Source: Blastocatellia bacterium (GTDB lineage Bacteria > Acidobacteriota > Blastocatellia > HR10). From it: a stretch of 54,211 nucleotides of DNA. The DNA is taken from assembly GCA_035573895.1 (NCBI GenBank), contig DATLZR010000019.1:1-54211 (forward strand). Direction: 5' to 3'. Made by a program: the position numbers and the translations under genes. Numbering within the stretch: position 1 is the stretch's first letter; each line of letters starts with the position of its first letter. Below, one piece after another: positions 1 to 52,920 of the stretch. The notes beneath the pieces are model-generated. The model did not search any database and was not told the origin of the DNA. It worked only from the letters and a program-made list of their open reading frames with translations.

Positions 1-929
1 ACCCGCCGGGAACGATTTATATCCCTGCCACGCCGGCGACACCGGCGAAGCTGGAAAAGCTGGCGCGGGATCTTGGATTGAATTTTGACGCGACGACCGT
101 GCGTCCCTCGGGCGATGCTTTCCGCTTGCGACCGGTACGCATTGGATTGTGGGATCGCTACGGGGGCTCAATGCCCTCGGGCTGGGTGCGCTGGCTCCTC
201 GAACAGTTCGAGTTCCCCTTCACGGTCGTTTATCCGCCGACGCTCGACGCCGGGAATCTGGCGGAGAAATTTGACGTGCTGATCTTCGTCACTGGCGCGA
301 TTCCCGCCCGCGATTCCCGTGGAGGTGAAGGGTTCGGCAGCATGCCTGATCCACAAACCATCCCCGAAGAATATCGGGATCGTCTGGGGATGGTGACAGT
401 GGCACAAACGGTCCCTCAGCTTCGCCGATTCCTCTCCGAGGGCGGCACGATTCTCGTCATCGGCAGCTCGACCAGTCTGGGATATCACCTCGGTCTTCCC
501 ATCGCTAATGCTCTGGTCGAACGACTGGCTGACGGAACCGAACGGCCCCTGCCGCGAGAGAAGTTTTATATCCCCGGATCGCTGCTCCAGGTTCGCGTGG
601 ACACATCTAATCCGCTGGCCTACGGTATGAGCGAACGCCTCGACGTCTTCTTCGACAATAGCCCTGTGTTTCGGTTGAAACCGGAAGCGGCTCTCGGTGG
701 GGTGAAACCCGTCGCCTGGTTTGATACGGGGAGCCCGCTGCGCAGCGGCTGGGCGCTCGGCCAGAAATATCTTCAGGACGGCGTGGCCGTGATTGATGCA
801 ACGGTGGGCAAAGGCAAGCTCTTCCTCTTCGGCCCGGAGATCACGTTCCGGGGGCAGCCACACGCGAGTTTCAAATTCTTGTTCAACGGCATTTACTATG
901 GCCGTTCGGAGCGGGTCGCGCTCCCCTGA
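1..929 (+). CDS. M14-type zinc carboxypeptidase, C-terminal part (5' truncated by window)
   Basis: The reading frame is open from the first bases of the window, so about 308 C-terminal residues are present and the start lies outside. The visible part lacks the zinc-binding residues of the catalytic domain. It resembles the C-terminal alpha/beta, class-I-amidotransferase-like region that follows the M14 domain in many secreted Acidobacteriota carboxypeptidases: an RIGLWDRYGG-type strand-turn, a predicted Rossmann-like core, and a late GKGKLFLFGPEITFRGQ segment. The product would be an exported peptidase, but the family call rests on this tail only. It ends in TGA at 927-929 and is followed by a long non-coding stretch. 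Another secreted hydrolase carrying the same tail cannot be excluded. Confidence 0.6.
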   Translation, partial: PPGTIYIPATPATPAKLEKLARDLGLNFDATTVRPSGDAFRLRPVRIGLWDRYGGSMPSGWVRWLLEQFEFPFTVVYPPTLDAGNLAEKFDVLIFVTGAIPARDSRGGEGFGSMPDPQTIPEEYRDRLGMVTVAQTVPQLRRFLSEGGTILVIGSSTSLGYHLGLPIANALVERLADGTERPLPREKFYIPGSLLQVRVDTSNPLAYGMSERLDVFFDNSPVFRLKPEAALGGVKPVAWFDTGSPLRSGWALGQKYLQDGVAVIDATVGKGKLFLFGPEITFRGQPHASFKFLFNGIYYGRSERVALP

Positions 930-17886: not shown

Positions 17887-20757
17887 TTACAGTTGGCTGT
17901 GGGTACGCATGTGGAGAATCTGGCCATCGGTCTCGAATGTGATCATGCCGTCGCGGCCTGTTTGCAGGAGGCAGACTCCCCGGGCGCGATAGCGTTGCAC
18001 CACATCGGGATGGGGATGGTGGAACGGACTCCGCTCTGGAGCCGTGATGATCGCCCATGCCGGCCGGACGCGGGTGAGGAAGGGCTCGGTGCTGCTTGTG
18101 CGACTGCCGTGGTGCGGGACCTTCAGCACCTGACTGTGGAGATCGAAGCCGGTCTCAAGCAGTGCGTGTTCCTCGGCCCGCTCGATATCTCCCGCCAGGA
18201 GAATTGACATCCGCCCATAGCTTATGCGCAGGACGAGCGACCGGTCGTTACTCCATCGAAGCGGTGGCGCATCCTGGCGCGGCGGCCAGAGGACGACAAA
18301 CTGCACGCCCGCTATCTGAAAGCGGTCTCCCATGCCCAGGACCTGGACGGGAATCCGTCGAGAATCGAGTACTCTCATGAACCGGTCAACCCGCGCGTCA
18401 GCCACAGGGGGCTGAGCGATTAAAACTCTTCCCACGCCGAAGTTTTTCACCACGGCGAAGAGGCCGTCGAGGTGATCTGCATCCGCATGCGTCAGAACCA
18501 GATAGGCGATCCGCTTGATGCCCCGTGACCAGAGAGCTGGTGAGACGGCTACTTCGCCGACCGACCGGCTGTCATCGGTGAAATCGGGCTCCATTTCCCC
18601 TGTGTTACCCCGAGCGGTGATCGTCTCGCTGGGGCCAGGTCTCGGTTTTCGTGCAATCTCCTCCCATCGGAACTCCCCGCCTCCATCAACGAGCATTATC
18701 GTTCCATCCGGCAGCTCTAAAAGAGTACAATCCCCATGCCCTACATCGAGAAAATGGAGGCGGAGCCATCCCTTTTGATAGCGGTGGCTGACGGGATACG
18801 TGGCGATCAACAAAAAGCTCACGACCCAGGCCACTGCAACGAGATGCGGCAGAAGCCGCCGTCGGCTGCGGCGCGATCCCACAGGCAGGATGGCTTTCTC
18901 CTTCGCATGCTGCCGGGGATGAAACGTCACCGGTTGCCAGCGACTCAGTCGAACAGCCCAATAGACGAGCGTCGCAAAATAGACGACATAGATCACGACC
19001 CCGGGACCGGAATACTCGGGCACGCGAAAGCTCGCCCCGCGAAAACTTAACGGGAAGTCGAAGCTTCGCATCATCGCGTCGGTCAGCCGATCAGTGACAC
19101 GTCCAACCAGATAAGCCAGTGGGAGGTCCATCACCGATAGCCCCAGCGCCAGAATGGCCGATGATCCGATCAGGGTCACAAAAAGGGCGATGACAACGTT
19201 GAGGACAATTCCCGCCAAAACGACGCGATGGAAATAGATGGCCATGAGCGGCAGAAGCGCCATCTGAGTAACGCCGGAGACGAGCAGGGAAAGAACGCAG
19301 AAGCGCACGAGAGGCTGAACTCCCGGCAGGCGACCGAGCCAGCGAGCTGCGTCAGCTTTGTCCAGGCGAAATCGAATCGGCGATGCCTGCTGGTCACGCT
19401 GAAATCGGCGCTCATCCCAGAAGAGCGTTTCCGCCAGGAATCGCACAGCAGGCGGGCAGGACGGCGGTTCCGGCGTCTCAACCGTAGGTCGCCACTCGCC
19501 GATGGCCCGAAGATGACCAACGAGGGGTAGACTGAGCAGGACGATGCTGAGCACGGCGAGAAAGGTCAGCTGAAAAGAAGGCGAAGTCAGCTCCTGTGGA
19601 TTATGACTGAGCAGTAGAAGCGCCGCCAATCCCACCGTGTTGACCGGCTGAGCCTGGCGAAAGACAAACGGGGCCGCGAGCATCACCGTCATCATCACCG
19701 TCGCCCGCGTGACCGGAGCCTGTCCTCCAACGGCGACGGTGTACGTCCAGAGGAGAAAAATCGTCGGCAGCGCCCGCAGCGCCCACCGCCGCGTGTAGTG
19801 CGAGATCAGCCAGAGGATCGCTCCGGCAATGGCCGCGATATGGGCTCCCGAAATCACCAGCAGATGAAAGGTCCCGCCGGCGCGGAACCGTTCGGCAGTC
19901 TCTTCGTCGAGGAAATAGCGATTCCCCAGCAAAAGGGCTTTGAGAATGCCGGCCGTGCGGGCAGAGAACAGTTGGTCAATCCGCCTCTCAGCAGCCTCTC
20001 GGAGATCATAAACGACGGTCCGAAACGACAGCGACTCGTTTCTTTCCAGCAGGGTGATAAGCAACGGACTTTTCACCACCCCGGCGAGATCGTAACCGCG
20101 CACCTCCAGATACTCGCCGTAGTCGGACACACCGGGATTGCGATAGCTCCGGGGACGATTCAGTCGCGTGAGGATTCGCAGCCGGGCACCATAGCCGAGA
20201 CCTGCTTCCTGAAGCCGATCGAATTCCCGTTGTGCCTCCTCATTGCTCAGCATCACCATGAGCCGAAGGCGACCGCTGGCGGGATGCGTCTGTCGTCGCG
20301 TCGTGATCCTCTCGACGCTGACATCGAGGTAGGCGCGAAGGGGAGCCCTTTCGGAAGGACTCACGAGCCGCCCGATGACTTCGACCGGATCATCCGGGCT
20401 GATCACCCCGGTATCGAGAAGGCGACGCAGACGATGCTCGGCAACATGATGAGCATGGACCCGAGCCGAGAGGGCGCCAAGCACACCATAGCCGACCAGC
20501 AACACGGCGAAGAACACAACCGATGCGACAGACCTCTCCGAGGCCGCTGCATCCGAAGCCGCATTCCGTTCGAGGCGACAAAGATACCAGTGGACGACCG
20601 CACAGAAGCTTCCGCAGGCGAGCGTAAGAGCAAGGAGCAGGGGGGCCGAGACGGTCGGTCCGAGAAACCGCCCCAGATAAACTCCTCCGGCAAACGCCAC
20701 ACCCATAAAGAGCAGCGGCTGAAACGTCGGGTGAAGAGGAAGGACTCGGTCACGCAT
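17887..20757 (-). CDS. comEC: ComEC/Rec2-family DNA uptake channel protein
   Basis: A 956-aa inner-membrane protein of natural transformation, expected to pass single-stranded DNA into the cytoplasm. Order: N-terminal membrane helices and DUF4131 domain (residues 1-210), competence domain (about 235-520) with FHLLVISGAHIAAI and VTRATVMMTVML segments, more helices, and a C-terminal metallo-beta-lactamase domain (about 690-950) with LHFLDVGHGDCTLLELPDG and LTHADADHLDGL. Length is longer than the Bacillus protein (about 780) but usual for the DUF4131 type. I start at ATG 20757 (MRDRVLPLHPTFQPLLF); an in-frame start 41 codons upstream adds a basic non-conserved stretch. A TATAAA box ends 6 nt before this ATG, overlapping an AAAGGA site. 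Confidence 0.95.
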   Translation of the reverse strand: MRDRVLPLHPTFQPLLFMGVAFAGGVYLGRFLGPTVSAPLLLALTLACGSFCAVVHWYLCRLERNAASDAAASERSVASVVFFAVLLVGYGVLGALSARVHAHHVAEHRLRRLLDTGVISPDDPVEVIGRLVSPSERAPLRAYLDVSVERITTRRQTHPASGRLRLMVMLSNEEAQREFDRLQEAGLGYGARLRILTRLNRPRSYRNPGVSDYGEYLEVRGYDLAGVVKSPLLITLLERNESLSFRTVVYDLREAAERRIDQLFSARTAGILKALLLGNRYFLDEETAERFRAGGTFHLLVISGAHIAAIAGAILWLISHYTRRWALRALPTIFLLWTYTVAVGGQAPVTRATVMMTVMLAAPFVFRQAQPVNTVGLAALLLLSHNPQELTSPSFQLTFLAVLSIVLLSLPLVGHLRAIGEWRPTVETPEPPSCPPAVRFLAETLFWDERRFQRDQQASPIRFRLDKADAARWLGRLPGVQPLVRFCVLSLLVSGVTQMALLPLMAIYFHRVVLAGIVLNVVIALFVTLIGSSAILALGLSVMDLPLAYLVGRVTDRLTDAMMRSFDFPLSFRGASFRVPEYSGPGVVIYVVYFATLVYWAVRLSRWQPVTFHPRQHAKEKAILPVGSRRSRRRLLPHLVAVAWVVSFLLIATYPVSHRYQKGWLRLHFLDVGHGDCTLLELPDGTIMLVDGGGEFRWEEIARKPRPGPSETITARGNTGEMEPDFTDDSRSVGEVAVSPALWSRGIKRIAYLVLTHADADHLDGLFAVVKNFGVGRVLIAQPPVADARVDRFMRVLDSRRIPVQVLGMGDRFQIAGVQFVVLWPPRQDAPPLRWSNDRSLVLRISYGRMSILLAGDIERAEEHALLETGFDLHSQVLKVPHHGSRTSSTEPFLTRVRPAWAIITAPERSPFHHPHPDVVQRYRARGVCLLQTGRDGMITFETDGQILHMRTHSQL

Positions 20758-21378
20758 GGTCCTTTTATACCGTTTCAAAAAACGTGATATGTTGTTGGGG
20801 CGTCCCTCGGGCCCCGTGTTCTTCCACCCGCGTCGTGGGCGGGGGACATATTTCTTCGCGCGCGACCTGGGATTGCCCACTCCCGCCGGTCTCGCGGGTG
20901 AGGGTGTGACCCTTGCTCTCGAAGATGATATGATGACTCTCCGTCACGGTCAGGCATTCTCATCGCAGTCTCTTTCCCGGCCCCCACACTCTGCAATCCG
21001 GTGGCTCACTTATTGGCATCGTTTCTGCTTCAGAACATGCTCATGAAGGTCGAGGTCATCCTTCATCCTGGCGAAAGCGGCAACGGAGGGTATCCCGCCG
21101 ATCTTTCCACCGCGTCTCAATCTGTGCCGCGAGGTTTACGGGAGGGCGAGAGCCGACACGGGCACCCCACCCGGCTCTGGGCCACGGAGGCCGTTGAACA
21201 AGTCGCTCCGGGTTGCTGGCAAGCGGGATCCTGCTGGAGGAAGGCCGGAGGTGTGCCCGCCAGACCAACTCCCACCGCCAGCTCGTTCGTCAACATGGAC
21301 GCGATAGACAAGCACCTGTCGCACATCAAACGTCCGGAGGTCCCATACACGGTAAATGTGGATCGTCCTGTGATGCCC
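20758..21378. other. Intergenic stretch between comEC and the DUF72 gene
   Basis: About 620 bp with no convincing gene on either strand. The comEC -10 box (TATAAA, minus strand, 20764-20769) is at one end. GC-rich short inverted repeats occur (for example CCCGCG...GGGCGGGGG near 20829-20845), without T runs. Open frames through it have atypical composition for proteins (Arg/Pro/Gly-rich) and no conserved motif. Confidence 0.4.
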
Positions 21379-22242
21379 TTAACAGGACTTTCTCCACACT
21401 TCCTCAAACAGGCGAATCGAGCCGATGGCAAATCCCGCGTAGTGGTTGTTGAAATAGACGTAGATCTCAATCCCCCGCGCGGCGAGTCGGTTGATGGCCG
21501 GTACCCACCGCTGCATGTCTGGCGTTCGATCCAGGACGAGTTCGTCCCACTCCTTTTCCTTCCTTCCCTCTTTGATGAGTCGGGCGACGAGCGCATCCAT
21601 CTGCTTATGATGGCCGAGGAAGCGAATGAGGGTGAAGTCGGTGGTGACGACGTCTTTCTTCTGCATCAGCTCGTCGAGAGGCGGCATGGTGTAATAGCTG
21701 ATGAGCGTCAGCGCGATGTCGTATGTGCGAAGGAGGGAGAGGAGGTCTTCGGTCACCCAGCCGGGATTTCTCACCTCAACAGCATAGCGAAACTCACGGG
21801 GGAGCGTGGGCAGGAAAGTCCGCAGCCGACGGAGGAAGTCCTCGCCGGTCCGATACTCGTGCTCATCTTTTCCTTTGGCGACGTAGGGGAATTGAAAGAC
21901 GAGCGGGCCCAGCCTGTCGCCGAGCCGCTCCATCGTCCGAAGAAACTGCGTCATCTCCCGGTCGCAATCCAGGAGATATTTCTTATGGGTGATCGTTTGA
22001 GGCACTTTAGCAGCGAACCGGAAGCCCTCCGGCGTGCGCTGCCGCCATCCGTCCACCAGCGCCGGTGAGGGCGGGTGATGCCAGGTGGCATCAATTTCCA
22101 CCGTATCGAAGTGGCGGGCGTAATAGCTGAGGAAATCAGCCGGTTTGAGTTCTGGGGGATAAAAAACGCCGTACCAGTCGGGCGATGACCAGCTTGAGGT
22201 GCCGACGTGAACCGTCGGAGGGAAAGGACTCGCACGAGTCAT
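21379..22242 (-). CDS. DUF72 (YecE-like) TIM-barrel protein
   Basis: A 287-aa DUF72 protein. Family signatures: VHVGTSSWSSPDWYGVFYP (about residues 11-29), YYARHFDTVEIDATWHHPPSP (40-60), FRFAAKVPQTITHKK, LGPLVFQFPY (about 112-121), YAVEVRNPGWV and YVYFNNHYAGFAIGSI near the end. The fold is a TIM barrel; the biochemical role is unknown, with suggested links to DNA repair and the Fe-S field. Its ATG overlaps the fabI stop as ATGA (22239-22242), so it is translationally coupled to fabI. The C-terminus is full length. Confidence 0.93.
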   Translation of the reverse strand: MTRASPFPPTVHVGTSSWSSPDWYGVFYPPELKPADFLSYYARHFDTVEIDATWHHPPSPALVDGWRQRTPEGFRFAAKVPQTITHKKYLLDCDREMTQFLRTMERLGDRLGPLVFQFPYVAKGKDEHEYRTGEDFLRRLRTFLPTLPREFRYAVEVRNPGWVTEDLLSLLRTYDIALTLISYYTMPPLDELMQKKDVVTTDFTLIRFLGHHKQMDALVARLIKEGRKEKEWDELVLDRTPDMQRWVPAINRLAARGIEIYVYFNNHYAGFAIGSIRLFEEVWRKSC

Positions 22243-23033
22243 GATGCCGTATCCGGTGCCGAGTCGGGCACCGTCATCCCCATGATGTGGTATCCACCGT
22301 CAACGAAGATGATCTCTCCGGTGATGCCGCGCGAGAGATGGCTGACGAGGAAGAGGGCGACATCAGCGACTTCGCTCGGATCGGTATTTTTGCGCAACGG
22401 AGCCGTTTGGCTGACGTGTCTGAGCATCTTCGTGAAGCCGGGAACTCCGCTGGCCGCCAGCGTGCGAATGGGGCCCGGCGAGATGGCGTTGACGCGAATG
22501 CCCCTGGGACCCAATTCGTAGGCCAGATATTTCACCGCCGACTCCAGCGCCGCCTTGGCTGCTCCCATGATGTTGTAGCCGGGCATGACGCGCTCGCTTC
22601 CCAGATAGGTGAGCGTGACGATGCTGCCGTGACCCTCCATCAAGGGGGCCGCCCGCCGCGCCAGTGCAATGAGCGAGTAGACGCTCACGTCATGAGCAAT
22701 GCGGTAGCCCTCGCGGGAAGTGTTGATGAAGTCGTTCTCCAGGTCCTCGCGGGGCGCAAACGCCACCGAGTGGACGAGAAAATCGAGTTGCTGAAACTCC
22801 TGAGCCACCGCCTGGAAGACGGCCTCGATCTGAGCGTCATCCGAGACATCACAGGGGAGAAGAAGAGGATTATCCAAAGTGGCGGCCAGCTCGCGCACGT
22901 TCTCGCCCAGTCTCTCATTCTGATAGGTGAGAGCCAGGCGTGCTCCGGCCTGAGCCACTCGCTGGGTGATCGCCCAGGCGATACTTCGCTTGTTGGCGAT
23001 TCCAAAGACGATTCCTTTTTTCCCTTCCAGCAT
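22239..23033 (-). CDS. fabI: Enoyl-[acyl-carrier-protein] reductase (NADH)
   Basis: A 264-aa short-chain dehydrogenase that completes each elongation cycle of fatty acid synthesis. FabI hallmarks: GKKGIVFGIANKRSIAWAI (cofactor-binding loop), PCDVSDDAQIEAVF, DFLVHSVAFAPRE, and the catalytic YNIMGAAKAALES, where Y and K fit the Y-x6-K motif. SPGPIRTLAASGVPGF and VDGGYHIMGM follow. I begin at ATG 23033 (MLEGKKG) because the frame upstream overlaps its own promoter. No Shine-Dalgarno precedes the ATG (GTTGTGGCC) and the -10 box ends only 7 nt before it, suggesting a leaderless mRNA. It is the target family of triclosan and diazaborine. Confidence 0.96.
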   Translation of the reverse strand: MLEGKKGIVFGIANKRSIAWAITQRVAQAGARLALTYQNERLGENVRELAATLDNPLLLPCDVSDDAQIEAVFQAVAQEFQQLDFLVHSVAFAPREDLENDFINTSREGYRIAHDVSVYSLIALARRAAPLMEGHGSIVTLTYLGSERVMPGYNIMGAAKAALESAVKYLAYELGPRGIRVNAISPGPIRTLAASGVPGFTKMLRHVSQTAPLRKNTDPSEVADVALFLVSHLSRGITGEIIFVDGGYHIMGMTVPDSAPDTAS

Positions 23034-23040
23034 GGCCACA

Positions 23041-23069
23041 ACGATAATCAATCGCCGGGCGAGCGTCAA
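23041..23069 (-). promoter_or_regulatory. fabI-DUF72 promoter placed for leaderless transcription
   Basis: On the minus strand: TTGACG (23069-23064), 17-nt spacer, TATCGT (23046-23041), then 7 nt to the ATG. Transcription would begin within one or two bases of the start codon. Confidence 0.65.
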
Positions 23070-29054: not shown

Positions 29055-29133
29055 AGGTGGCACTACTTCCTCCGACTGATCTGGCGATGGTTCTTGCTTC
29101 ACTCCGGCAGGGGAAACGTGATAGACTTCGGGC

Positions 29134-29823
29134 GTGACCGGGGTGAAGGGTGAAAAACTGAGGATTCGCCAGGCTCCGGCGGGACGCATTGTTCGCTCGG
29201 TCAAACAGGTGGTGTTTGTCCTGAGCCTGGGCGGGCTCTTTGTTCTGAGTACGTCGGTGGCCATTTATCTGGCGATGCGCCAGCCTCAGGTGAAGACTCC
29301 TCAACTCATCGGTATGTCGCTGCCTCAGGCGCAAGAAATGGCCCGGCGGCTCGGTCTGGAACTTCAGGTGAAAAATCGTCGCTATGATGACCGTTATCCT
29401 CCCGATGCTGTGGTGGATCAATGGCCCCCACCGGGAATGACGATCAAGCGAGGTCAGGCCATGCGGGTGGTCCTCAGTCAGGGAAAGCGACCTGGACCGG
29501 CGGAAGCTGTCGTCGCGCCTGTGGAGGCGAAACCGCTGCCGGAACCTGCGGCGGAGACGGCACCTCCGGCTCCGGTTGTTAGGCCGGCTCCTGCTGCTCC
29601 GGCGGAACCGGCAGTGGTGACGGAGACGAAGCCGACCCCCGAGAAAGTTGAGAAGGCTGAAGAAAAGCGAGAACCGGTGATGACCGGTCCTCCGCCGACA
29701 CCGCCTGCGGCCAAGCAACCCGAAACGAGTCCCGAGAAGCCATCGGCCCCGCCCGGAGAGCCCGCGTCGCCCGCCAGGCGTCCGGGCAAACACGGAGAGA
29801 GAAAGCCGGGATCGCACGGATGA
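29134..29823 (+). CDS. Membrane-anchored PASTA-domain protein
   Basis: A 229-aa protein: short cytoplasmic N-terminus, one membrane helix (about residues 26-48, [21 protein letters not shown]), one PASTA domain (about 54-117, [21 protein letters not shown]...[25 protein letters not shown]), and a Pro/Ala/Glu-rich tail of over 100 residues. PASTA domains bind muropeptides or beta-lactams and usually sit on Ser/Thr kinases or penicillin-binding proteins; neither is fused here. It starts with GTG; a TAGACT -10-like box ends exactly 6 nt before it and no clear Shine-Dalgarno is seen. Its stop overlaps the rpe start as ATGA. Confidence 0.85.
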
Positions 29824-49594: not shown

Positions 49595-49624
49595 TTGATT
49601 GAACCGATCGAGGACGGCTATAAT
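49595..49624 (+). promoter_or_regulatory. bshC promoter next to its start codon
   Basis: TTGATT (49595-49600), 18-nt spacer, TATAAT (49619-49624, consensus). The predicted start of transcription (about 49631) is 5 nt before the ATG at 49636, leaving no room for a Shine-Dalgarno. Confidence 0.6.
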
Positions 49625-49635
49625 TGCCCGTCATC

Positions 49636-51321
49636 ATGACCGTGCCACGGAGCAATAGTGATCGCTTGTCCCCCGCATCGGTTGAGCATCGGGATGAGCG
49701 CTTGCGGGTCTCCTTCACGGACATTCCTCACACTCCTCGCTTGTTCGTTGACTTTGTCTGCAACTTCGCTCAGGTGAGCGAGTTTTATGGCCCGATGCAA
49801 CGATCCGATCGTCCATTGAGCGCGTGGGCCGAAGACGTGGCGGGCCGGGCGCGCTGGCGACGTTTACTTGTGGATGTCCTGCGCGATCAGAACCGTCGCT
49901 TCGGAGGCGATGACGTCACGCAGGCCAACATTGACCGGCTGGCGGATTCCGGCTGCGTGGCCATCGTCACCGGTCAGCAAGCGGGACTCTTTACCGGTCC
50001 CCTGCTCACGCTCTACAAAGCCCTCACCGCCATTACCGTTGCGGCTGAGCTTCAGCGTCAGGGTATAGCGGCAGTGCCCGTTTTCTGGATCAACAGCGAG
50101 GATCACGATTTCGATGAGGTGAATCACTGTGGGGTCGTCGGGCGCGATGGTCAGTGGACGGAGATTCGTTATGCCGGAGCGGAGGAGGACCTCGGCAAGC
50201 CCGTCGCCGATCTCGTTCTGACAGGCGATATTGATCGGGCCATCGGCGAGTTGCTCGCCGCGCTCCCGAATTCGGAGTTCCTTCCTCAAATTGAAGCCGA
50301 CCTGCGGTCGAGTTATCGGGCGGGGACTCGATTCGTCGAGGGATTCGCCCGGTTGCTGATGCGGATGCTCGGTGGTACCGGCTTGATTTTGTTCGATCCG
50401 TCGGATGCCCGGTTGAAACCGGCGCTCGTGCCGCTCTTTCGTCAGGTTCTCGCGCAATCCCGCCCTCTGGGAGCCGCTCTGCGGAAGCAAACGGAGATGC
50501 TTCAAAACCGGGGCTATCGCCCACCGATTCATCTGACCGAGGACAGCACGTTCCTTTTTTTCCGGGAGCAGGGGAAGCGGTATCCCCTGGTGTGGATGGG
50601 GGATCGAGTGGGGGTCAAGGGCGGGGCAACGACCTTCACCGAGCAGGAGGTGCTCGATCTCATCGCCGAAGAGCCCCATCGGTTCAGTCCGAACGTGGCC
50701 CTGCGTCCTCTGGTTCAAGACACGCTCCTGCCGACACTCGTTTACATCGGAGGGCCGACCGAGATCGCCTACTTCGCTCAGCTCACGCCACTCTATCCGG
50801 CTTGTGATGTGATCGAACCCGCGATCTGGCCGCGCGCGTCGCTCACACTCGTTGAATCGCGATATGCAGCGATGATGGCCAAATACGCCCTTCGACTCAC
50901 CGACCTCTTTGCCGGAGCGGATGCCGCGCGTGCGGTCGTCGTAGAGCGATCTTTGAAACACGATCATCTCGATCTTTTCAATCGCGCCGAGGAGGTGGTG
51001 GCCGAGCAATTGGCTCACCTGCGGCAGATTCTCGTCGAGGTGGATCCGACGCTCGACCGACCGGCCCTCAAAGCCATCGAGAAAGTGCGCCATCAGATCG
51101 CGAGCCTCCGCCGTCATTACATTGATGCCCGCGCCCACCGTGATGCCATTCTCACCCAGCAGATTCAGCGGCTCACAACGATTCTCACTCCGGGCAGGAA
51201 ATTGCAGGAGCGCGAGCTGAACGGATTTTACTTCTTCGCCCGCTACGGCTATAGCATCCTTGAGCGTATACGCCGGGAGATCGAGGTTCCCTCTCTCGAT
51301 CATCGGCTCATTTTTCTCTAA
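49636..51321 (+). CDS. bshC: Bacillithiol biosynthesis cysteine-adding enzyme BshC
   Basis: A 561-aa BshC, which joins cysteine to glucosaminyl-malate in the last step of bacillithiol synthesis. Signatures: LFVDFVCNFAQVSEFYG, VTGQQAGLFTGPLLTLYKALTAI (about 115-137), VPVFWINSEDHDFDEVNHCGV near 150, a FLFFREQGKRYPLVW region, FSPNVALRPLVQDTLLPTLVYIGGPTEIAYFAQLTPLY near 345-382, then the coiled coil and the C-terminal LQERELNGFYFFARYG. Length is usual (about 540). The ATG at 49636 is next to a -10 box with no ribosome-binding site; a TTG at 49702 would remove 22 poorly conserved residues. bshA/bshB are not in the window. Confidence 0.95.
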   Translation: MTVPRSNSDRLSPASVEHRDERLRVSFTDIPHTPRLFVDFVCNFAQVSEFYGPMQRSDRPLSAWAEDVAGRARWRRLLVDVLRDQNRRFGGDDVTQANIDRLADSGCVAIVTGQQAGLFTGPLLTLYKALTAITVAAELQRQGIAAVPVFWINSEDHDFDEVNHCGVVGRDGQWTEIRYAGAEEDLGKPVADLVLTGDIDRAIGELLAALPNSEFLPQIEADLRSSYRAGTRFVEGFARLLMRMLGGTGLILFDPSDARLKPALVPLFRQVLAQSRPLGAALRKQTEMLQNRGYRPPIHLTEDSTFLFFREQGKRYPLVWMGDRVGVKGGATTFTEQEVLDLIAEEPHRFSPNVALRPLVQDTLLPTLVYIGGPTEIAYFAQLTPLYPACDVIEPAIWPRASLTLVESRYAAMMAKYALRLTDLFAGADAARAVVVERSLKHDHLDLFNRAEEVVAEQLAHLRQILVEVDPTLDRPALKAIEKVRHQIASLRRHYIDARAHRDAILTQQIQRLTTILTPGRKLQERELNGFYFFARYGYSILERIRREIEVPSLDHRLIFL

Positions 51322-51339
51322 ACCATTTCACCGGAGGTG

Positions 51340-51801
51340 ATGCCCCCGGCAGCGAAACACAGCCAGAACGCCATGTCGCCCCTTGTGCTTCCCTCTTTCA
51401 TCGTCCGGGAGATCGAGTGCCATGCCCGGGAGACTGCTCCCGAGGAATGCTGTGGGTTGCTCGGAGGGAAGGGAAGAGTCGTGGAGAGTCTCTACCGGCT
51501 GCGCAACGTGGCCGAGACTCCGGAGACGCGTTACTGGGCCGATGTGAAGGATGTCTTCGCTGCTTTCCGCCTCATGCGCCAGCGAGGCCAAAAGTTGTTG
51601 GGAATTTATCACTCGCATCCCCGGGGGGAACCCCGCCCGTCCGAGACCGATATTCGTCAGGCGTACTACCCCGAGGCCGTCTATTTCATCATCACGCTGG
51701 AGCCGACTGTGTGCCTGCGGGCTTATCGGATTGTGGGGGGAGAGGTGGAGGATGTCTCCTACGATGTGGCGGATGACTTGCTCTGCGGTTCCACACGGTG
51801 A
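51340..51801 (+). CDS. M67-family (JAMM/MPN) metallopeptidase
   Basis: A 153-aa JAB1/MPN domain protein. The JAMM zinc motif is complete: E in APEECCGLLGG (about residue 34), then GIYHSHPRGEPRPSETDIRQAYYPEA (HxHP-x8-S-x2-D, about 88-113). Bacterial members cleave C-terminal tails of sulfur-carrier or ubiquitin-like proteins (for example MoaD/ThiS fusions, CysO). No such partner is adjacent. GGAGGTG lies directly before the ATG at 51340, which is unusually close; ATG 51373 (MSPLVLPSF) matches family length better but has no site. It follows bshC by 18 nt. Confidence 0.9.
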   Translation: MPPAAKHSQNAMSPLVLPSFIVREIECHARETAPEECCGLLGGKGRVVESLYRLRNVAETPETRYWADVKDVFAAFRLMRQRGQKLLGIYHSHPRGEPRPSETDIRQAYYPEAVYFIITLEPTVCLRAYRIVGGEVEDVSYDVADDLLCGSTR

Positions 51802-51903: not shown

Positions 51904-51994
51904 GAGGTTGGGCGTCTCCCGACCAAGCGTCGAAGATGCTCTCCCGATGCAAGAGGTTGCGTTGATCCCTTCCGATGGGGCGCGCTCATCGTGA

Positions 51995-52030
51995 GCACCT
52001 GCTTTTCATCCTATCCGGGCAAGCAGGTGC
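51995..52030. other. Inverted repeat upstream of cdaA
   Basis: GCACCTGCTT (51995-52004) and AAGCAGGTGC (52021-52030) are perfect 10-nt arms around a 16-nt loop containing TTCATCCTATCCGGGC, faintly like the loop of the dispersed hairpin repeat. There is no T run on the plus strand. The rest of 51802-52110 holds no gene. Confidence 0.4.
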
Positions 52031-52075: not shown

Positions 52076-52104
52076 TTGCTTCGGTGGAAAATCGCAAGGA
52101 TAAT
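52076..52104 (+). promoter_or_regulatory. cdaA promoter placed for leaderless transcription
   Basis: TTGCTT (52076-52081), 17-nt spacer, GATAAT (52099-52104, 5 of 6), then 6 nt to the ATG. The A of the ATG falls at the expected +1. An AAGGA overlaps the -10, 10 nt from the ATG, and would not be transcribed. Confidence 0.55.
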
Positions 52105-52110
52105 TAGGGC

Positions 52111-52920
52111 ATGATGGATTCTTTTTGGAGGACAATTCAACATCTCACGGTCCGCGATGCGGTTGATATTTTTGTCGTAGCCTTGATGGTTTATGGGATA
52201 CTCCGGTTGATCAAAAACACGCGGGCCATGCAGATGGTCTACGGGCTCATGGCGCTGGGGGTGCTTTATTTTCTTTCCTCCCGGATGCATCTGCGGGCGC
52301 TGGAATTCGTCCTCCGCAATGCACTGCTGTATATCGGCATCGCCGTCATCGTCATCTTTCAGACGGAGATTCGAGCCGGGCTCGTTCAGTTCGGAAGATA
52401 TTTGCCTCGACCATTTGGAACGCGGGAGCCCCGGTTGAGCGAATACGAACGGATGTTCGAAGAGGTCCTGCTCGCCGTCACCACGCTGGCCGCGCAGAAG
52501 ATGGGTGCTCTCATCGTCTTTGAGCGAACGATCGGGCTGCAAAATTTCATCGAGACGGGAGTTCGACTGGAGGCGCCGGTCTCCTACGATCTGCTCGTTT
52601 CCATCTTCCATCCTCGGGTGCCGCTTCATGATGGGGCCGTGATCATCCGGGGGAATCGCATTGTCGCGGCCAGTTGCTTCCTCCCCCTCACGCTCAATCC
52701 TCATCTCTCGAAGGAGTTCGGCACGCGACACCGAGCGGCGATTGGGGTCACCGAGGATACCGATGCCGTTGTCATCGTCGTTTCTGAAGAAACCGGGATT
52801 ATTTCCTTTGTGGCGCAGGGGCGGTTATACCGGCACATGGACACGGCTCGATTGCGCCAGCTTCTCCGGCAATCGCTGGAGCCGGGAGGCGGGCGCGCGT
52901 CCTTCGCTCCAGCCTCCTGA
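52111..52920 (+). CDS. cdaA: Diadenylate cyclase CdaA
   Basis: A 269-aa membrane-bound enzyme making cyclic di-AMP from two ATP. Three N-terminal membrane helices (about 15-37, 42-58, 62-90) precede the DAC domain (about 105-235). Catalytic motifs are intact: VPLHDGAVIIRG (DGA near residue 173) and FGTRHRAAIGVTEDTDAVVIVVSEETG (RHR near 207). The C-terminus is short. It is followed by cdaR, the usual partner, after 70 nt. Two ATGs (52111, 52114) are adjacent. The promoter position suggests translation from a leaderless message. Confidence 0.96.
   Translation: MMDSFWRTIQHLTVRDAVDIFVVALMVYGILRLIKNTRAMQMVYGLMALGVLYFLSSRMHLRALEFVLRNALLYIGIAVIVIFQTEIRAGLVQFGRYLPRPFGTREPRLSEYERMFEEVLLAVTTLAAQKMGALIVFERTIGLQNFIETGVRLEAPVSYDLLVSIFHPRVPLHDGAVIIRGNRIVAASCFLPLTLNPHLSKEFGTRHRAAIGVTEDTDAVVIVVSEETGIISFVAQGRLYRHMDTARLRQLLRQSLEPGGGRASFAPAS

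Follow-up and report, generated by a model that had tools for sequence, protein, structure and literature searches.

Promoters set against start codons suggest leaderless or nearly leaderless transcripts in an order of Acidobacteriota

Several genes in an order of Acidobacteriota very probably carry sigma-70-type promoters so near the coding sequence that transcription would start at the start codon or 1 to 5 nt before it. On fabI, accD and cdaA this placement appears to be old, being kept across the order. Box position, enrichment, pairing with -35 elements and conservation were read directly from the genomes; the RNA 5' ends and the mode of ribosome entry are predictions made from them.

The original prediction had placed -10 boxes shortly before the start codons of cdaA, comEC, fabI, bshC and a gene for a PASTA-domain protein in the window, which is the whole contig C19 (54,211 nucleotides) of a Blastocatellia genome of 3.9 Mb in 184 contigs. 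All five boxes were recovered with their spacings, and the gene identities agree with Pfam. The features are:

52076..52081, forward strand: cdaA -35 element TTGCTT, 17 bp upstream of the -10 box; not listed in the original prediction
52099..52104, forward strand: cdaA -10 box GATAAT, followed by a 6 nt gap and the ATG at 52111
52111..52920, forward strand: cdaA (diadenylate cyclase), ATG start; Pfam DAC and CdaA_N
49595..49600, forward strand: bshC -35 element TTGATT, 18-bp spacer
49619..49624, forward strand: bshC -10 box TATAAT, 11 nt gap to the ATG at 49636; predicted leader of about 5 nt
49636..51321, forward strand: bshC, ATG start; Pfam BshC models
29122..29127, forward strand: PASTA gene -10 box TAGACT (extended, TGA-TAGACT), 6 nt gap to the GTG at 29134
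29134..29823, forward strand: gene for a PASTA-domain protein, GTG start; Pfam PASTA; second GTG 9 nt downstream
23064..23069, reverse strand: fabI -35 element TTGACG, present in 9 of 10 genomes of the order
23041..23046, reverse strand: fabI -10 box TATCGT, 17 bp after the -35 element, 7 nt gap to the ATG at 23033
22239..23033, reverse strand: fabI (enoyl-ACP reductase), ATG start, no Shine-Dalgarno; Pfam and NCBIfam FabI models
20764..20769, reverse strand: comEC -10-like TATAAA, 6 nt gap to the ATG at 20757; no -35 match by eye
17887..20757, reverse strand: comEC, ATG start; Pfam Competence, DUF4131 and Lactamase_B

The TTGCTT at 52076 explains the coordinate at which the earlier annotation began. 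Two of the five boxes (GATAAT and TATAAA) do not fit TANNNT. We scored boxes against TATAAT, calling a box near-consensus with at most one mismatch and loose with at most two mismatches and an A at position 2, in either case at a gap of 5 to 11 nt; the control was the same 20 nt upstream permuted, which leaves the A/T content unchanged. In the window, loose boxes preceded 7 of 24 first genes versus 2.3 in shuffles (sd 1.5), and boxes with at most one mismatch 4 of 24 versus 0.3. Such a count is a weak argument by itself, so that a genome-wide test was needed to decide.

The -10 hexamer ends 6 nt before the transcription start (+1). A gap of 6 nt between box and start codon would therefore yield a leaderless mRNA, and gaps of 7 to 11 nt a leader of 1 to 5 nt, leaving no room for a Shine-Dalgarno (SD) sequence. 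Translation would probably initiate on the 5'-terminal AUG or GUG, by the 70S monosome or by an IF2-assisted route, both of which serve leaderless mRNAs in other bacteria. Recognition of such mRNAs would go through the start codon at the 5' end itself; IF2 and leaderless mRNA are treated in PMC10783764. Many of the gaps are 8 to 12 nt, for which a leader of 2 to 6 nt is just as likely as none. The proposal that these mRNAs start at the start codon or very few bases from it is supported by the enrichment and orthologue sharing reported below, with the amendment that gaps of 8 to 11 nt correspond to a leader of about 2 to 5 nt rather than to none.

Genome-wide counts were drawn from 983,144 bases of the same genome, window included, holding 705 genes of which 683 had a usable start; genes open at the 5' end, less than 60 nt from the end of a stretch or with N upstream were left out before counting. 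Start codons came from our gene finder and homology, some of them wrong: an SD-aware choice served for the counts, with homology added for the orthologue test, and a choice from coding signal only was discarded as noisy (it shortened cdaA, for example). Near-consensus boxes preceded 19 of 130 SD-less first genes of transcription units, compared with 2.5 in shuffles (maximum 8), and the expectation of -10 boxes enriched near start codons thus withstood a check over 983 kb. Operon-internal genes showed no excess (1 of 197 versus 2.2), which confines the feature to first genes. Sorted by gap, the boxes before SD-less first genes numbered 0 at 0 to 4 nt, then 1, 3, 1, 5, 2, 4 and 3 at 5 to 11 nt, and at most 2 beyond; a lower edge at 5 nt is expected if transcription begins at the start codon or immediately ahead of it. 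TANNNT starting at -18 to -11 was likewise found in 28 of the 130, versus 12.4 (maximum 24 in 500 shuffles). At 16 to 18 bp from their boxes, the 19 boxed genes matched the -35 consensus at a mean of 3.37 of 6 positions versus 2.36, a mean that 0 of 2000 shuffles reached, and eight of them matched at 4 or more positions, a number that 1 of 2000 shuffles reached. Over all first genes, near-consensus boxes were in excess (20 of 486 versus 6.6) and loose boxes were not enriched (50 of 486 versus 49.4); restricted to SD-less first genes, loose boxes numbered 33 of 130 versus 12.8. A/T-rich control patterns were raised too (for example AT...T, 14 of 98 versus 8.0, and T...AT, 16 of 98 versus 7.1).

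A single-motif model of the first 692 kb (498 genes) returned AGGAGG at about -10 to -15 with a weight of 0.81, marking SD initiation as dominant. Two-motif mixture models fitted de novo to this genome produced low-complexity pyrimidine motifs instead of a second upstream signal of TA type, and a model started from TANNNT drifted off; mixture models were not used for the counts. Genes predicted to be leaderless or to have very short leaders are thus a minority of about 3 to 8% of first genes beside dominant SD initiation, which bears out the earlier suggestion of two coexisting modes, the SD-less first genes with near-start boxes being the smaller.

The order was sampled with ten genomes of three families: f1, with our own genome (G000) and five members of one sister genus (G001-G005); f2 (G006, G008 and G009); and f3 (G007). 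Our genome and G001 shared 110 reciprocal best hits; the start codon was common to 91 of them, and 77 of those were first genes. TANNNT stood near the start in both orthologues of 6 pairs, in ours only in 5, in G001 only in 1 and in neither in 65, where 1.0 would be expected for both (Fisher p=1.3e-5). The four control patterns were shared in 1 (0.65 expected), 1 (0.52), 4 (1.30) and 1 (0.55) pairs; the one with four, T...AT, also fits TAnAAT, and we infer that its four are the same boxes. Operon-internal pairs shared a box in 0 of 14 cases. Family searches identified three of the six shared-box pairs as LarB, NagA and TsaB, and a fourth as a PP2C-type phosphatase (first 240 residues searched) whose Stp1 match lay below the family cut-off. 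Within G001, near-consensus boxes preceded 5 of 55 SD-less first genes versus 0.7, but also 4 of 235 operon-internal genes versus 1.4, which speaks against confinement to first genes; unfiltered first genes of G001 showed no pile-up near the start (6 of 302 at 5 to 11 nt, up to 16 further out).

For G020, from another family of the class, neither TANNNT (5 of 94 versus 8.8) nor near-consensus boxes (1 of 94 versus 1.6) were enriched, so that on this sample the signal is not class-wide. The G020 sample (L114-L133) had a much weaker, A-rich SD signal (AGGaaa) and no TA signal, and many of its genes would accordingly have no recognised initiation signal. Plasmid 1 of D. deserti, the positive control, carried TANNNT before 12 of 42 genes versus 4.8 (9 of 42 versus 2.5 at -14 to -11), with near-consensus boxes at 1 of 42 versus 1.1. 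The likeness to our genome lies in TANNNT at -11 to -14 of SD-less first genes; the plasmid differs in having loose TANNNT only and in holding a TANNNT-started model (mix 0.35), whereas our boxes are near-consensus and lie 5 to 11 nt from the start, slightly further out. TA as the second major motif, the mark of a Deinococcus-like leaderless-rich genome, was not found in ours. An E. coli K-12 sample (50 kb) was left out because it held just 35 genes.

The clearest single case is fabI, for which the predicted lack of an SD is plain. TTGACG-17/18-TATnGT-7..9-ATG precedes the SD-less gene in nine of the ten genomes of the order, G007 being the exception. A fabI match was obtained in 73 of 78 genomes, and the best 20 from outside the order were cut out for comparison: the promoter block occurred in 0 of these 20 loci, each from a different genome of the class, and an SD-like 4-mer at -20 to -5 in 18 of them, versus 1 of 10 genomes of the order. 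The hexamers stay constant over spacers of 17 or 18 bp and gaps of 7, 8 or 9 nt, so neither conserved coding sequence nor an N-terminal extension accounts for the block. No second promoter-like site was found in the fabI intergenic region. By this comparison fabI appears to have its promoter at the start in this order, and SD sites instead in other families of the class. Ahead of the -35 element, roughly 60 nt from fabI, the five sister-genus genomes (L135-L139) have in common a block like TGTCAAAAATC, at whose position two f2 genomes have TCTCAA; it is a possible regulator site.

The genome-wide list added accD from outside the window (contig C9, L072:1274-2137), which has a near-perfect promoter at its start, TTGACA-17-TAGAAT-8-ATG, and no SD. 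TTGACA/G-17/18-TAnAAT lies 8 to 12 nt before the aligned ATG in eight of the ten genomes, and TTGACA/G and TAnAAT occur in all f1 and f2 genomes; the exceptions are a gap of 15 nt in G006 and TTGCAA-18-TAGAAT-9-ATG in G007. Gaps of 8 to 15 nt would correspond to leaders of about 2 to 9 nt. For both fabI and accD, protein alignment that reaches the very first residues fixes the start in almost every relative. The automatic box finder missed accD of G006, began from a TTG or from a closer ATG in G008 and G002, and chose wrongly at fabI of G007; pairwise identities between relatives' boxes are biased upward, as the hexamers were selected by consensus match. Before ruvB, TACAAT stands 9 to 10 nt from the ATG in the six f1 genomes, with no common -35 element and no box in f2 or f3. 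The box before accC in our own genome was set aside, the relatives not having kept it.

For cdaA, we compared nine genomes of the order, leaving out G005, which has a cdaA fragment only. TTGnnn-17-nATAAT-6/7-start is present in five of the nine (G000, G006, G007, G008 and G009), representing all three families, and absent from the upstream regions of the sister-genus genomes G001-G004, where it appears to have been lost. Our cdaA, 74% identical to that of the Acidobacteriota MAG JZ-3.bins.73, has an AAGGA that overlaps the -10 box and ends 10 nt before the ATG, as well as an AGGG, and begins with two successive ATG codons (ATG-ATG). A terminator-like hairpin with a T-rich tail (window 51984-51996) precedes it, which fits cdaA as a first gene. 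The stretch between bshC and cdaA (window 51337-51801) encodes a product that by eye resembles a JAB/MPN-type metallopeptidase and has a counterpart in the same position in G001-G004.

Taken gene by gene, the leaderless-type assignment drew backing from relatives for fabI, cdaA and bshC. The bshC TATAAT stands 8 to 9 nt before a GTG or ATG in G001-G004 and is absent from G006-G009; one of the ten genomes, G005, gave no bshC match. In our genome a GTG codon lies just downstream of the bshC ATG. For the PASTA gene the box was upheld and its distance was not: relatives keep a TACACT/TAGACT-like box, but at least about 20 nt ahead of an ATG, from which a G-rich, SD-like stretch separates it in G001-G005, and in our genome only GTG codons are available close to the box. 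No such backing came for comEC, whose TATAAA had no counterpart in relatives (G004 and G005, with distant paralogues only, being left out). An AAGGA lies just 2 nt before the comEC ATG, nearer than an SD usually stands.

It is improbable that the boxes are chance A/T-rich hexamers and that transcripts start upstream, using weak SDs or unstructured leaders. Such an origin would suit the unenriched loose boxes over all first genes, the comEC TATAAA and an AAGGA at cdaA that could act as a weak SD, but it leaves unaccounted for the near-consensus boxes, the 5 nt edge, the -35 pairing, the orthologue sharing, the order-wide conservation of the fabI and accD hexamers, and a fabI intergenic region devoid of another promoter-like site. 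We also regard as unlikely a misassignment of start codons, with the real starts downstream behind a normal leader and SD. The PASTA gene invites this explanation through its relatives' starts further downstream, as do the second ATG of cdaA and the GTG of bshC; the alignment-fixed starts of fabI and accD, and nine of ten fabI starts without an SD-like 4-mer, oppose it.

SD-less genes are expected to require open leaders, so A/T-rich sequence might have been selected to keep the ribosome-binding region open and not as a promoter, in line with the raised A/T-rich control patterns. We judge this very improbable: operon-internal genes need translation signals equally, yet just 1 of 197 is boxed, a -35 element at 16 to 18 bp would go unexplained, and shuffles that preserve A/T content give just 2.5 boxed genes. 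Promoters placed at the start codon are thus our preferred reading.

Leaderless initiation is already known and the case is ordinary in kind. The survey of TA-led genes included three Acidobacteria genomes, which we take to lie outside the order studied here. It reports leaderless genes predicted in 3 of 3 Acidobacteria genomes, at an average of 13.3% (9.7-19.4), and TANNNT/-10 boxes some 12 nt ahead of the start codon in TA-led genes (Zheng et al. 2011, PMC3160421). The -10 box near the start is common to those genes and ours; our share is lower (about 3 to 8% of first genes), and here single genes are traced across relatives. Genomes mixing leaderless and SD initiation have been described by the GeneMarkS-2/StartLink authors, whose StartLink text does not name Acidobacteria (0 occurrences; PMC9581028). 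In the open-licence literature we found no mapped 5' ends for Acidobacteria, Acidobacteriota or Blastocatellia, and no earlier description of the new detail, namely that fabI, accD and cdaA keep this arrangement across the order and that fabI changes mode at the order's limit.

These results supply comparative evidence, beyond motif counts, for leaderless-type initiation in an order represented here by genomes alone. At fabI they point to a clean change of mode, promoter-at-start versus SD, between this order and other members of the class; named genes are now available for testing how such an initiation switch evolves. In these genomes, some starts may be set wrongly by SD-based start calling. 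It is conceivable, though rather doubtful, that the leaderless state is a selected trait of a small, fixed group of genes (fabI and accD in fatty-acid synthesis, cdaA in c-di-AMP synthesis, perhaps with ruvB, larB, nagA, tsaB and the PP2C phosphatase); if so, the group would respond jointly whenever conditions favour leaderless over SD mRNAs, as under stress, with a changed IF2/IF3 ratio or on altered ribosomes.
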